From the NCBI RefSeq assembly GCF_031846245.1, contig NZ_JAVRIC010000001.1, positions 186,001 to 250,000 on the forward strand: a stretch of 64,000 bases of DNA, read 5' to 3'. A program made the position numbers and the translations under genes. This document shows, piece after piece, positions 32,680-38,645 of the stretch. Every line of letters begins with the position of its first letter. Position 1 is the first letter of the stretch. The notes under the pieces were generated by a model. It was not told where the DNA came from and ran no database searches. It worked only from the letters and a program-made list of their open reading frames with translations. The DNA is from Banduia mediterranea (GTDB taxonomy: Bacteria > Pseudomonadota > Gammaproteobacteria > Nevskiales > Nevskiaceae).

Positions 32680-32817
32680 GATCTCCTCCTTGATTTATCG
32701 TCCAGCTCGCAAACAGGCGCATCTGACGTGCGTGCCGGGACGTTAGCACGCGCGGTCAGACAGAAAAACCAATGGCGCTCGTCGTTTCAGGACGGGTGCA
32801 CGAGAGCAGGGACGGGT

Positions 32818-35586
32818 ATGCAGATGAACGGCACGTGGACACGGGTGGTACTGGCGCTGGGCCTGGCGGCTCTCGGCGGCTGCGGCAGCAGCCCGGGCCC
32901 CAGCGGCGACGGTAGCGGCAGCGGATCGGGCAGCGGCTTCAAGACCTTCGAGGTCTGCGGCAGCGACGCGCAGGTCCGCGACCAGGCGCTGATCGCCTTC
33001 TTCGATGCGCGTGAAGGCGACACCATCGAATTCTGCGAAGGCAGGTTCAGCATCTCCACCGGCCTGATCCTGCACGGCAAGCGCGGCATCACCATCAAGG
33101 GCCAGGGCATGGACAAGACCATGCTGGACTTCGCCGAAAGCGACAGCGCGGAAGGCCTGAACATTTCGCACAGCGACGGCATCACCCTGCTGGGCTTCAC
33201 CGTGCGCGACACCCCCGGCAACGCGATCCGCGTATTCCGTTCCAAGTACGTCACCTTCCGCCAGATTCGTGCGCTGTGGAGCGGCTACGATACCTGCGAC
33301 ACTGATCCCGACGCCGACGACTCCTGCGCCCATCATGGGGCCTACGGTCTGTATCCGGTGGAATCGCAGCATGTGCTGATCGAGGATTCCGAAGCCTTTG
33401 GCGCCTCCGATGCCGGCATCTACGTCGGCCAGACCAGCGACGTGATCGTGCGGCGCACGCGTGCCGAATACAACGTGGCCGGCTTCGAGTTCGAGAACAC
33501 CTATCGCGCCGTGTTCGAGGACAACATCGCCACCAACAATACCGGCGGCTTCCTGGTGTTCGACCTGCCGAATCTGGCGCAGTACGGCACCAAGAACATC
33601 ATTCGCAACAACCAGTCGTACAACAACAACACCGACAACTTCGCGCCGATCGGCAATATCGTGGGCATCGTACCGCGCGGCACCGGCATGCTGTTGCTGG
33701 CCACCGACCAGCTCGAGGTCTATGGCAACGAGGTCAACGACAACGACACGCTGGGCATCGCCATCGTCAACTATGCGCTGGCCGACCCGAACCAGCCCGA
33801 CCAGAAGTACGACTTCTTCCCGGAGGGCATCCACATCCACGGCAACAGCTTCCGCGACAACGGCACCAATATCCAGCTGCCGAGCGCCGATCGCGGCACG
33901 TCCTCGCTGCTGCCGCTGCTGCTCAAGCTCAAGAACCTGGGCCGCTCGGCCCACATCACCTGGGATGGCGCGGTCGATGCGCCCAATGGCTGCACCCAGA
34001 TTCCGTTGGACGCCGACGGCATCCCGCTGACCGAACCGAACCCGAATGAAACACGCCCCGAACCGCGCGTGGACGAACGCGGTCGTCCGAATTTCATGGG
34101 TTCCGATCCCGAACCGGAATGCAAGTGGACCGAATGGAAGTTCGCCGAGGGCGAGGATGAGCCGAAGCTGCCGGAAAACGGGCTGTGCATCGAGGACGAC
34201 AACATCTTCGAAAATACGCAGCCGCTCGGCAATCTCACCACCACCGACTTCCTCAACGCCAAACTCACCTCGTCGGCCACCGCGCAGTTGGTGATCGACC
34301 TGCTCAAGCCGGCGACCACCAGCCTGGAACCGCATCGCTGCCAGCTACCCAGGCGCGCCGATCCCGATCTGGGGCTGCCGTTCGTGCCCAGCGCCGATTC
34401 GGACAGCGCGCGACCCAGCGATTCGGAAGTCAGCAAGGCCTGCAACGGTGGCCCGTCCGGTGAGCCGAACTTCGCGGCCGCGGCCCAGTACAACTGCCCG
34501 GACCTGGCGCAGTACGGCCTGTTCCATGACGACGAAGATCCGCGCAGCGGCGCCAATGGCGGTGTCCTCTACGGTCTGAGCACGCCGCTGTTCTCGGACT
34601 ACGCGAACAAGCACCGTTTCGTGTTTCTGCCGCCCGGCAAGGCGGCGAAATACCAGGACCATCATGACGGCATCACCGCCACGCTGGACTTTCCGGTCGG
34701 CACGATCATCGCCAAGACCTTCTCGTTCCTGGACGGCGCCGACGAGCACATCATCGAGACCCGCCTGCTGATCAAGCGCGAGACCGAAACCGGCACCACC
34801 TGGATCGGCCTGCCCTATATCTGGCAGGACGAAGGCGGCAAGCGCGTGGCCAAGCTCACGGTCGAAGGCGGCTCCGCCAAGGTGCACTACAACTTCGACG
34901 ATCCGGACCCCGACGTGGACGCCCACTACGAAGGCCAGGTCGAGCGCTACGGTATTCCGGCCGCGATGAACTGCATCTCCTGCCACGGCGGCGATGATCG
35001 CGAACCCGGCTCGGCGCCGATCGGTCCCAAGCCGCGCCTGATGAACCGCGACATGGATTACGGCGACGAAGGCGTGATGAACCAGCTGGTCTACTGGCAG
35101 ATGCACGGCCTGCTCGAAGGCCTGCCGGCCAATCTCGAGGACGTGGAACGCCTGCCGCGCTGGAACGTACCGGGCGACACCGGCGAGCTGCCGGACAGCG
35201 AGGCCGATATCCACCTGCGCGTGCGTGCCTACCTTGAAACCAATTGCGCGCACTGTCACAACTCGCACGGCGGCGCCAGCAATTCGGGCCTGTACCTCGA
35301 CAGCTTCCGCACCGTCGACAACCGCTACGGCATCTGCAAGAAGCCGGTCGCGGCCGGCAAGGGTTCCGGCGGGCGGCTCTACGACATCGTGCCCGAATCG
35401 GCGAACGATTCGATCCTGCCGTTCCGTGTCGGCTCGGCCGAAGCCGGCGTGCGCATGCCGCCGATCGCGCGCACCGTACCGCACGGCGAGGCCGTGGCCC
35501 TGATCCAGCAGTGGATCGACACGGTACTTCCGACCGACGACACCGAAGACGCGGACGTCTGCACAGGACCGCTTTCGGGCTTCTGA
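32818..35586 (+). CDS. Lipoprotein fusing a parallel beta-helix domain to an SO2930-type diheme cytochrome c
   Basis: The 922-residue protein starts with a lipoprotein signal (lipobox LGGC, Cys22) and a Gly/Ser linker. Residues about 35-400 are a right-handed parallel beta-helix with repeating VxIxD/NxxY turns (FENTYRAVFEDNIATNN, GTKNIIRNNQSYNN), as in TIGR03805. Residues about 570-920 match the SO2930-family diheme cytochrome (TIGR03806), with FLPPG, heme motifs CISCH (near 719) and CAHCH (near 810), and a final MPP/IQQW segment. In other bacteria these are usually two neighbouring genes. ATG 32818 fits the signal peptide; longer starts add unrelated residues. Confidence 0.85.
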   Translation: MQMNGTWTRVVLALGLAALGGCGSSPGPSGDGSGSGSGSGFKTFEVCGSDAQVRDQALIAFFDAREGDTIEFCEGRFSISTGLILHGKRGITIKGQGMDKTMLDFAESDSAEGLNISHSDGITLLGFTVRDTPGNAIRVFRSKYVTFRQIRALWSGYDTCDTDPDADDSCAHHGAYGLYPVESQHVLIEDSEAFGASDAGIYVGQTSDVIVRRTRAEYNVAGFEFENTYRAVFEDNIATNNTGGFLVFDLPNLAQYGTKNIIRNNQSYNNNTDNFAPIGNIVGIVPRGTGMLLLATDQLEVYGNEVNDNDTLGIAIVNYALADPNQPDQKYDFFPEGIHIHGNSFRDNGTNIQLPSADRGTSSLLPLLLKLKNLGRSAHITWDGAVDAPNGCTQIPLDADGIPLTEPNPNETRPEPRVDERGRPNFMGSDPEPECKWTEWKFAEGEDEPKLPENGLCIEDDNIFENTQPLGNLTTTDFLNAKLTSSATAQLVIDLLKPATTSLEPHRCQLPRRADPDLGLPFVPSADSDSARPSDSEVSKACNGGPSGEPNFAAAAQYNCPDLAQYGLFHDDEDPRSGANGGVLYGLSTPLFSDYANKHRFVFLPPGKAAKYQDHHDGITATLDFPVGTIIAKTFSFLDGADEHIIETRLLIKRETETGTTWIGLPYIWQDEGGKRVAKLTVEGGSAKVHYNFDDPDPDVDAHYEGQVERYGIPAAMNCISCHGGDDREPGSAPIGPKPRLMNRDMDYGDEGVMNQLVYWQMHGLLEGLPANLEDVERLPRWNVPGDTGELPDSEADIHLRVRAYLETNCAHCHNSHGGASNSGLYLDSFRTVDNRYGICKKPVAAGKGSGGRLYDIVPESANDSILPFRVGSAEAGVRMPPIARTVPHGEAVALIQQWIDTVLPTDDTEDADVCTGPLSGF

Positions 35587-35596
35587 GTTTGGGGCG

Positions 35597-35642
35597 TAGA
35601 CTCCTCCGGTACAGGTCGACGATCCTGTACCGGAGGAGTCTA
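35597..35642 (+). promoter_or_regulatory. Perfect hairpin that buries the ribosome-binding site of the next gene
   Basis: TAGACTCCTCCGGTACAGG (35597-35615) and its exact complement (35624-35642) are separated by 8 bases. The right arm contains the GGAGGAG Shine-Dalgarno and ends on the A of the ATG. There is no T-run after it, so a terminator role is less likely than control of translation or protein binding to DNA. Confidence 0.8.
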
Positions 35643-36811
35643 TGAAAAGGACAGTGACCGGTCGCGCCTGCGTGACCATTGCTTCAGGCTTTCTACTGGG
35701 CGTGCTACTCAGCGCCTGCGGTGGCGGAGGCGGCGGATCGGACGACGGTGGCATCGATCTCGACGACCTCAAGACCGAAATTACCGTGACCCGTGAGGCC
35801 TGTACCCCGTTCGGTGCACCGCCACGGCCGCTACAGGCGACCAATGCGCTGTTCCAACCCACCTGCATCACCGGTGGCGAGCGCATGGCGGACTGGACGG
35901 ACGCCGAGGGAACCGCCCGCACCGCCTGTCTCTACGAACCCGAACAGGCTTCCACCGAAGCGCCGCTGCCGCTGGTGGTCTACCTGCACCCTTCGATATT
36001 CGGTCCCGACATTTCGCTGGCATTCAACAACGTGCGCGGCGGGCTCGAAACCGCCGATCTCAGCGGTGACCCGGAACGCCCGGGTTTCATCATGCTGGCG
36101 CCCTACGGTCGCGTTACCGAGCGCTATTACCCGTTCCCGGATGATGGCCTCACGCCGGGCTGGGACAACTGGTATCGCCAGATGCTGCCGGACCAGCCCA
36201 GCCGCAGCGTCAACGGCGAAGCCTGGCCGATCAATGTCGATGTCGCTGCCATCGATCACTTTCTCGATGAGGTCGTCGCCAGCGGCAAGGTCGATACCGA
36301 CCGCATCTATCTCATGGGCTGGTCCAATGGCTCGGCGTTGGCCGTGCTCTACGCCCTCAACCGACCCGAAATCGCGGCCGCCGCCGTATATTCCTCGCCG
36401 GATCCGTTCGAAGCGTTCAACGATCCCTGCGTGCAGCTTCCGGTACCGGATGCGCCCAAGGACGACACCGAGCTTCAGGTATTCAACGCCGGCCTGCCGA
36501 TCTTCCACATCCACAACGATTGCGATCTGGCCGGCCTGTGCCCGAACGGGCTCCATCTGAAGCAGACCGTGCTCGGCACCGGGGTAGCCGATTTCACGAG
36601 CCAGATCATCAATACGGCGCTCGATCCGGTGGATGCCTGCGTCGACGCCTGCGGCACCGATCCGCTCGCAGACTACGCCAGCCTCAGCGAGATTCCAGGC
36701 TATCTCGGCAACCTGCCGGGTTACACGGTAGGGCTCGTCAACCACCTGCGCTGGCCGATCGGCTATACCGACTCGATGTATGCCTTCCTGCGGGATCATC
36801 CGAAGAACTGA
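35642..36811 (+). CDS. Alpha/beta-hydrolase lipoprotein (esterase/depolymerase-like)
   Basis: The 389-residue protein has a lipoprotein signal (lipobox LSAC near residue 27) followed by a Gly/Ser/Asp linker. The hydrolase domain contains LVVYLHPS, DNWYRQ, the nucleophile elbow GWSNGSA near residue 225, and a late Asp/His region (HIHNDCD, NHLRW). It recalls LpqC/PHB-depolymerase-type secreted esterases; the substrate is unknown. Several Cys pairs suggest disulfides. It follows the beta-helix/cytochrome gene by 55 bases, suggesting a shared function at the outer membrane. Confidence 0.7.
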   Translation: MKRTVTGRACVTIASGFLLGVLLSACGGGGGGSDDGGIDLDDLKTEITVTREACTPFGAPPRPLQATNALFQPTCITGGERMADWTDAEGTARTACLYEPEQASTEAPLPLVVYLHPSIFGPDISLAFNNVRGGLETADLSGDPERPGFIMLAPYGRVTERYYPFPDDGLTPGWDNWYRQMLPDQPSRSVNGEAWPINVDVAAIDHFLDEVVASGKVDTDRIYLMGWSNGSALAVLYALNRPEIAAAAVYSSPDPFEAFNDPCVQLPVPDAPKDDTELQVFNAGLPIFHIHNDCDLAGLCPNGLHLKQTVLGTGVADFTSQIINTALDPVDACVDACGTDPLADYASLSEIPGYLGNLPGYTVGLVNHLRWPIGYTDSMYAFLRDHPKN

Positions 36812-36818
36812 ACGCAAA

Positions 36819-36850
36819 CAGCCCCTCCGCCGTACGCGGCAGAGGGGCTG
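36819..36850. terminator. Hairpin between convergent genes
   Basis: CAGCCCCTC/GAGGGGCTG stem with an inner GCCG/CGGC stem. There is no T-run on either side, so termination strength is uncertain. It lies between the esterase and yceI ends. Confidence 0.5.
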
Positions 36851-36873
36851 GGTGACTGCGTGGATGCGGCCGC

Positions 36874-37446
36874 TTACGGCTTCTTCAGCGCCTCGACCTG
36901 AATCTGCAATTCCACACCGGTACCCGAGGACGCGCCGTAGTCCATGCCGAAGTCGGTGCGGTCGAAGCTCGCCGTGGCGTCCGCACCGCAGACCTCCACC
37001 TTGAGCATCGGATGCTCGATGCACTTGAAGGAATTGATCTTCAACGGCACCGGTTTGCTCACGCCGAGCATCGTCAGTTCACCGTCGACAGCCACCGGCG
37101 TCGCACCGTCGAAACTGATCTCGCCGCTATAGGTAATCGTCGGGTATTCGGCAGCATTGAAGAAATCCTCGCTGCGCGCATGCTCGTTCATCTTCTCGTG
37201 ACCGAAATCGACGGTCGAGGCGTCGATCATGATGTCGACGCTGCCCGTGGCGGCCGCGGTATCGAGCATCACGCTGCCGCTGGTCTTGTTGAACTTGCCA
37301 CGCCAGAACGAAATGCCCATGTGCGGCGCGGTGAAGCTGGGATAGGTGTGATTCGACTCGATCACATATTCGGTCGGGGCGGCCTGGGCGAGACCGGCGG
37401 TGGCAAGCAGCACGGCGCTGAGGCCGAAGGTGAAGGTGCGAAACAT
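36874..37446 (-). CDS. YceI-family periplasmic lipid-binding protein (first copy)
   Basis: The 190-residue protein has a signal peptide (cleavage after AQAAP-like sequence) and the YceI lipocalin-like barrel: YVIESNHTYPSFTAPHMG, GKFNKTSGSV, DFFNAAEYPTITYSG and GELTMLGVSKPV. Family members bind isoprenoid quinone-like lipids. Its two cysteines in SFKCIEHPMLKVEVCGAD are not found in the second copy. It lies 55 bases downstream of the second yceI and has GAGGAG upstream of the ATG. Confidence 0.92.
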   Translation of the reverse strand: MFRTFTFGLSAVLLATAGLAQAAPTEYVIESNHTYPSFTAPHMGISFWRGKFNKTSGSVMLDTAAATGSVDIMIDASTVDFGHEKMNEHARSEDFFNAAEYPTITYSGEISFDGATPVAVDGELTMLGVSKPVPLKINSFKCIEHPMLKVEVCGADATASFDRTDFGMDYGASSGTGVELQIQVEALKKP

Positions 37447-37501
37447 GTTGAACTCCTCGATGGGACGATTTTGACCGGGGGTGAAAGCAGCGTGGCATGC
37501 C

Positions 37502-38077
37502 TCAGTCGGCAGTGGCCACGACGCGGAAATTGATGACGACCTCGTCTTCGAGCACTTCGTTCCAGTCGGGGTCGCCGATGGAATAGGCCTTGCGCGACAA
37601 CGTCAAGCTGCCTTCGAACACCTGTGCGTCACCATCGGCCTCGGTGCTGAAGCGAATGTCGCGAGCTTCGGTGCGGCCCTTGAGCGTGAAGTCGCCATGC
37701 GCGATGAAACTGCCTTGGGCGTCGGCACTCACCGAGGTCGAGACGAAGCTGGCCTGTGGATACTGCTCGGTCGCCAGCCATTCGGGCTTGCGCACCTCGG
37801 CGTTGTAGTCCTCATCACCGATGTCGAAGCTCGCCGTATCCACCGTGATCCGTGCGCTCGAATTCCGCGGCACGGCCGGATCGAACTGGATGCGGCCTTC
37901 GAAGCGATCGAAGCGGGCGCTGACCGGAACGCCCATCTGCTTGAAGCGCACGCTGATCTCGCTGTCGTCCGCGTTCACGGTCCACAGCCCGGCCGCGTAG
38001 GCCAGGGTGATCATGCCGGCGGTGCCCAACACCAGCAGGCGCAGGCCGTACAGCATCGAAGCCGGGCAGTAACGCAT
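37502..38077 (-). CDS. YceI-family protein (second copy)
   Basis: The 191-residue protein starts with a membrane or signal segment (MLYGLRLLVLGTAGMITLAYAAG), then the YceI barrel: WTVNADDSEISVRFKQMGVPV, RFDRFEGRIQFDP, ASFDIGDEDYN and GDFTLKGRTEARD. It resembles the E. coli YceI-cytochrome b561 arrangement. ATG 38077 is chosen for its GAGGAG eight bases upstream; an ATG at 38107 overlaps the cytochrome gene stop. Confidence 0.9.
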   Translation of the reverse strand: MRYCPASMLYGLRLLVLGTAGMITLAYAAGLWTVNADDSEISVRFKQMGVPVSARFDRFEGRIQFDPAVPRNSSARITVDTASFDIGDEDYNAEVRKPEWLATEQYPQASFVSTSVSADAQGSFIAHGDFTLKGRTEARDIRFSTEADGDAQVFEGSLTLSRKAYSIGDPDWNEVLEDEVVINFRVVATAD

Positions 38078-38099
38078 CGCAGGACTCCTCGTGTGTTTT

Positions 38100-38645
38100 T
38101 TAGCCATCGCGCCCGATGCGGAACATCCGCATCAGGGTGCCGTCATGGTCGATGAATTGATGCTTGATCGCAGCGGCCGCATGAACCACCACCAGCGCCA
38201 CCAGCGTGAACGCCAGAATTTCATGCACTTCGACCAGGACCTCGGCGACGGCCTTGTTCTTGTCGAGCAGATCCGGCAACGGAATGACACCGAAATACAC
38301 CACCTTGAAACCGCTGGCCGAACTCATCAGCCAGCCGCTGAGCGGAATCACGAGCATCAGCAGGTACAGGCCACCGTGGCTGATGTGGGCCGCGCGGCGT
38401 TGCCAGGCTGGCATGCCGGGCGGCAAGGGCGGCGGGCGGTGCGTGATGCGCCAGATGCCGCGGATCAGCACCAGCAGGAACACCGACACACCGATCCACT
38501 TGTGCCAGCTGTAAAGCTTGAGCTTCTGCGGCGAAAACGGCAGATCGTGCATGTACAGGCCGAGCCCGAAGCCGCCGAAAATCAGCACCGCCAGCAGCCA
38601 GTGCAGGGTGATCGCGGTGCGGGTGTAGTGGGGCTCGGCGTTCAT
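38100..38645 (-). CDS. Cytochrome b561 (CybB family)
   Basis: The 181-residue membrane protein has four helices. The heme-ligand histidines are in LHWLLAV, SWHKWIG, VHEILAF and VVVHAAAA. This is the bacterial b561 pattern for electron transfer from quinol or superoxide. It is first in an operon with two yceI genes, the known cybB-yceI association. Confidence 0.92.
   Translation of the reverse strand: MNAEPHYTRTAITLHWLLAVLIFGGFGLGLYMHDLPFSPQKLKLYSWHKWIGVSVFLLVLIRGIWRITHRPPPLPPGMPAWQRRAAHISHGGLYLLMLVIPLSGWLMSSASGFKVVYFGVIPLPDLLDKNKAVAEVLVEVHEILAFTLVALVVVHAAAAIKHQFIDHDGTLMRMFRIGRDG

Follow-up and report, generated by a model that had tools for sequence, protein, structure and literature searches.

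A perfect hairpin predicted to bury the start site of a putative esterase gene in Banduia mediterranea, and its possible role in silencing read-through messages

In the fold-back inhibition of IS10 transposase, RNA reading into the element from its surroundings folds so as to mask the ribosome-binding site. A related arrangement is described for the lysozyme gene e of phage T4, where a stem hides the Shine–Dalgarno sequence (SD), the AUG or both in long transcripts from upstream, and where the DNA that encodes the 5′ side of that stem also contains a late promoter; according to the account of gene e in PMC3014915, its own transcripts lack this strand and are well translated. For I-TevI and mobE, the hairpin is likewise described as present only in transcripts from an upstream promoter, the RNA from the adjacent promoter being too short (PMC2988022, in its treatment of these two genes). 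Both are mobile endonuclease genes of phages, sited within introns or in the gaps between genes. Among the papers listed in our literature searches, which covered open-licence papers only, no chromosomal example of such a switch appeared; one may nevertheless be in print.

We analysed a window of 64,000 nucleotides that sits in contig C1 (294,287 bases) of the 3.83-Mb genome of Banduia mediterranea (G000); positions below are those of the window and refer to its plus strand unless stated otherwise. A perfect inverted repeat at 35597–35642 runs up to the first base of a putative esterase gene. As in T4 gene e, the SD and start codon of the esterase would be paired in a long RNA initiated upstream, at a calculated opening cost of 24–25 kcal/mol, and whereas gene e has mapped 5′ ends and the phage's late promoter sequence, TATAAATA, the esterase has a candidate −10-like hexamer. 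Unlike gene e, the esterase is a bacterial chromosomal gene and its stem is perfectly paired over 19–21 bp; unlike I-TevI and mobE, it is a putative esterase lipoprotein gene beside a cytochrome gene. In IS10 the sequence belongs to a mobile element, as its terminal inverted repeat, whereas the hairpin described here is single-copy. By analogy, the esterase hairpin would work like that of T4 gene e, its membership of this group depending on the promoter.

The upstream gene is an open reading frame (32728–35586) that ends with the stop codon TGA at 35584–35586, 10 nt 5′ of the hairpin, and encodes a parallel beta-helix domain fused to an SO2930-type diheme cytochrome c domain. Scanning of 32830–35583 against NCBIfam placed TIGR03805 (beta-helix) above its cut-off and TIGR03806 (SO2930-type diheme cytochrome) just below it (300.4 of 313.3 bits), and the same segment matched Beta_helix and NosD in Pfam. 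The two TIGR models match separate halves of the single upstream protein, which is thus a fusion, and relatives of this protein are present in 39 of 58 family genomes. The esterase gene (35642–36811) follows after an intergenic gap of 55 nt that is almost filled by the inverted repeat. Its product, of 389 amino acids, is a putative lipoprotein alpha/beta hydrolase related to PHB/PHA depolymerases: a lipoprotein-like signal, LLSAC, was read by eye at the N-terminus, and the protein matched Esterase_PHB in Pfam just below the cut-off and the NCBIfam short-chain PHA depolymerase model well below its cut-off. The original prediction had named it a secreted esterase. Viral relatives of the esterase were looked for and none was found. 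On its far side the esterase gene converges with a tandem pair of YceI-like genes at 36874–38107 on the minus strand; between the convergent genes lies a further hairpin (36820–36851), a perfect 14-bp repeat in the sister species that, by eye, reads with an arm mismatch in the window.

The inverted repeat itself proved to have the position and sequence first assigned to it. Its left (5′) arm, 35597–35615, and right (3′) arm, 35624–35642, are each 19 nt long and 100% complementary, and they enclose an 8-nt loop, TCGACGAT (35616–35623). The SD, GGAGGAG (35632–35638), lies inside the right arm, whose final base is the A of the ATG, and the left arm contains the complementary CTCCTCC. The original prediction had placed the SD and the first base of the start codon within the arm; in the computed RNA fold, the additional pairs G35596–U35643 and C35595–G35644 extend the stem to 21 pairs, which take in the SD and all three bases of the AUG. 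The 101-nt fold has a z-score of −5.2, none of 200 dinucleotide shuffles being as stable, and base composition alone leads to a chance expectation of about 2e-5 such repeats per 64 kb, or 0.001 per genome. Within contig C1 it is the longest of 13 perfect repeats with arms of 12 or more and loops of 3–20. Elsewhere in the contig, outside the window, another perfect inverted repeat, with arms of 18 bp and a loop of 10 nt (G000:C1:154171–154216), falls within a predicted open reading frame. Even with three mismatches allowed, the genome holds no further copy of either arm of the hairpin, which is therefore not a dispersed repeat; in Rfam, the best match scored 23.4 bits, far short of the family's gathering score of 98. 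A search of 85 genomes of the order for the architecture pattern TANACTCCT...AGGAGTNTATG recovered one, the window's own, the pattern being a narrow one that missed the sister species because of a T-to-A change. The hairpin is confirmed as a real and clearly non-random feature of this locus.

Opening the esterase start site from SD to AUG was calculated to cost 24.8 kcal/mol, the highest value among 245 predicted starts in contig C1 (next highest 18.3, mean 7.4, sd 3.6 kcal/mol), start codons here, in the TANNNT counts over predicted starts and in the placing of contig hairpins relative to predicted genes being assigned by a simple rule of open reading frame plus SD rather than by annotation. 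The cost depended steeply on where the RNA begins. With a 5′ end 97 nt upstream of the hexamer TAGACT, with which the left arm begins, it was 24.7 kcal/mol, and with 5′ ends at TAGACT+0, +6, +8, +10 and +12 it was 24.1, 15.5, 9.7, 5.3 and 4.7 kcal/mol, respectively; over +10 to +12 the calculated values were 3.8–5.3 kcal/mol, and for 5′ ends at 35607–35611 they were about 4–5.5 kcal/mol. The same series in G001, the one sister genome with which the window genome was compared within the genus, ran 20.6, 18.5, 13.9, 8.9, 5.7 and 3.7 kcal/mol. When the difference between the read-through and own-start costs was scored for 40 placements of TANNNT drawn from 270 SD-bearing starts, it was largest in the two esterase copies (20.5 and 16.2 kcal/mol); the next difference was 8.2 kcal/mol, and among these 40 placements the hairpin design was not seen as a genome-wide theme. 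The fold itself is well supported, and burial of the start site is very likely if read-through RNA exists. The original proposal that the folded mRNA would hide the ribosome-binding site gains strong support from the calculated opening cost and from retention of the hairpin in the sister species.

The hexamer TAGACT (35597–35602), which begins 45 nt before the ATG and was absent from the original prediction, resembles a −10 element of a putative esterase promoter, from which RNA would be expected to start 5–9 nt past the hexamer, at 35607–35611. Hexamers such as TATACT, TATGCT, TACACT and TATCAT stand some 40 nt ahead of the ATG in upstream regions of orthologues. Of 21 esterase-family upstreams, 8 had TANNNT at −50 to −36, including 6 of the 19 from outside the genus, as against a shuffle mean of 1.1, with none of 500 shuffles reaching 8. 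This set of 21 leaves out L011, L012, L041 and L045–L052, as well as L029 and L031 (duplicates of L033 and L034) and L032 (no start by the rule), and the start is uncertain for L006 and L007. In 664 kb from the two genus genomes, 227 predicted starts had an SD and upstream space of 30 nt or more. Among them there were 16 TANNNT matches at −47 to −38, an interval picked after the histogram had been viewed and a count that includes both esterases, compared with 61 across the 90 positions from −150 to −61 (p = 0.004). TAGACT occurs upstream of genes eight times, two of them the esterases, compared with twice for its reverse complement, a mild enrichment that ranks about eighth of 180 letter permutations. 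No −35 element was recognisable, the hexamer 17 nt before TAGACT being TTCGGG (2/6 by eye), and a promoter scan of the region gave no match. Moreover, the complementarity of the arms means that the AGTCTA of the start region dictates TAGACT, which could therefore be a by-product of the repeat, and its promoter-like position may be luck. From these sequence patterns we infer a candidate promoter in the left arm.

The hexamer pattern, the dependence of the opening cost on the 5′ end and the top ranks of the two esterases in the cost difference together lead us to read this element as a promoter-dependent start-site hairpin. The explanation we prefer, and regard as evenly balanced between right and wrong, is that the hairpin silences read-through messages and that the esterase is made from its own promoter only. 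RNA reading through from the cytochrome gene would fold the esterase SD and AUG into the 21-pair stem and, with about 25 kcal/mol needed to open it, would therefore hardly be translated for the esterase. The left arm would double as the esterase promoter region, with TAGACT as the −10 element and an RNA 5′ end near 35609; such RNA would begin inside the left arm, and the bases that pair with the SD would therefore never be transcribed. In this shorter RNA, opening the SD and AUG would cost ∼4–5 kcal/mol, a residual hairpin of 7–8 bp being left at the 5′ end, before the SD. Esterase output would then follow its own promoter, regardless of transcription of the upstream gene. The three readings originally offered were a translational switch, a processed operon junction and an operator for a dimeric regulator, of which the translational switch remains the best, its mechanism now being read as promoter choice. 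We think that what is switched is which promoter is used, and that neither ligand nor temperature is involved; a structure of about 25 kcal/mol would, in our judgement, be too stable for an RNA thermometer.

The hairpin might instead belong to the upstream gene, as an intercistronic 3′-end structure (a terminator without Ts, or a stabiliser of the mRNA 3′ end) that now overlaps the esterase start. Its place just 10 nt past the upstream stop codon would suit such a role, and several other perfect hairpins in contig C1, at contig positions 144753, 54088 and 112983, also lie 10–45 nt past predicted gene ends and are without a long T-run. However, scanning between the two genes found neither a T-run nor a terminator-like site, which bears out the earlier view that this is not a normal terminator. 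Over the final 8 bases of the arm and the next 8 bases, the plus strand has only three Ts, whereas 6 of the 12 other repeats have 7–9 Ts on the richer strand, the remaining six having only 1–5, and at 11 loci outside the genus the orthologues of the upstream gene are followed by unrelated hairpins or by none within 200 nt. We consider a 3′-end role of this kind unlikely.

The original prediction named relatives that have the same two genes but no hairpin as what would refute it; the sister species has both genes in the same order and the same distance apart, and it retains the hairpin, so that on this count the prediction is not refuted. Its left arm is unchanged. Two of the eight loop bases differ, one of these changes (T35616G) allowing one extra RNA pair, G–U, and the right arm carries a single change, T35639A, which is uncompensated and falls between the SD and the ATG. 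The sister stem accordingly has an uninterrupted 15-bp core, then the mismatch and then outer pairs, and the −10-like hexamer, SD and ATG are all left intact. With one uncompensated stem change between two sequences, this comparison has no power to detect covariation. The upstream neighbourhood is nearly identical in both genomes, the final 345 nt of the upstream gene differing at 2 positions, and conservation of the left arm therefore carries little weight. Divergence jumps at the loop, from 0 differences in 35438–35615 to 31 in 35616–35794 (counted), such that the ∼180 nt past 35615, which include the signal peptide region, are about 17% divergent, after which divergence is lower again.

Outside the genus, the closest esterase orthologues are 58–62% identical, and the named genomes with near esterases are a Nevskiales MAG, Sinimarinibacterium and Solimonas. 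These orthologues are without the hairpin and without the same upstream neighbour; in 21 orthologue rows, two of which are duplicates and from which the window and sister are excluded, opening the start site costs 2.6 to 10.5 kcal/mol. Among the matches listed, no genome outside the genus has the two genes adjoining, the nearest case being G014, where they are 1.3 kb apart. One esterase relative, L009 (in G023), lies downstream of a ClpA-like gene, so named from its translated end. At about 1427–1470 on the reverse complement of L009, TACACT stands 44 nt before the ATG and is followed by a bulged 12-pair hairpin, CTCCC-TGCATCC / GGATGCA-c-GGGAG, that covers part of the SD. L009 is like the window in having a −10-like hexamer and then a hairpin over part of the SD before an esterase relative, and unlike it in its shorter, bulged stem, its different upstream gene and a much smaller cost difference: opening its SD costs 11.3 in read-through RNA compared with 6.1 from +12, and by the measure applied to all orthologues its cost is an ordinary 8.3.

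The same comparisons bear on the possibility that the repeat arose by a chance template-switch mutation in an ancestor of the two species and has no function. The hairpin is known only from two closely related species, the one change in its stem is uncompensated, and orthologues manage without it, all of which would fit such an origin. Against this, both species retain the uninterrupted core, though a buried start should carry a cost for a gene dependent on read-through, and only 1 of 38 arm bases has changed compared with 13 of 58 in the stretch that follows (35643–35700); by this count of bases, the right arm has been conserved far better than the codons that directly follow. A functionless accident is, in our estimation, decidedly unlikely.

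A further alternative is that RNase III cuts the double strand formed in read-through RNA, separating the two messages and either freeing or destroying the esterase start. RNase III prefers about two helical turns, close to what a perfect 21-pair stem provides, but the mismatch in the sister shortens the uninterrupted stem. As a replacement for read-through silencing this seems very unlikely to us, and such processing would be compatible with read-through silencing as an extra step. Finally, the promoter might be overlapped by a DNA operator to which a dimeric regulator binds. Such a site, a perfect dyad over the putative −10, would account for symmetry at the DNA level, but we hold it highly improbable. 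The arms, at 19 bp, are longer than ordinary operator half-sites, and an operator shared with other genes is not supported: a genome-wide search allowing three mismatches gave no other arm copy, and the inner 26-mer recurs at three places, all with exactly three mismatches, and yields 8 strand matches compared with 22 for a reversed control.

Silencing of read-through messages thus remains our preferred reading. A broader proposal, which we put forward tentatively and consider rather doubtful, is that a −10 and start region that is the reverse complement of the SD and start codon serves to insulate a chromosomal gene from the one before it, the choice of promoter rather than a ligand settling whether the mRNA is translatable, and that this design may have arisen at least twice in the family, here and, weakly, in L009. 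If true, what is known as a phage trick would also be at work on a bacterial chromosome, keeping tandem genes independent of one another without a terminator. The element would be a simple insulator readable from sequence, with the −10 in the left arm and the SD in the right, and the prediction of operons from gene spacing alone could mislead.
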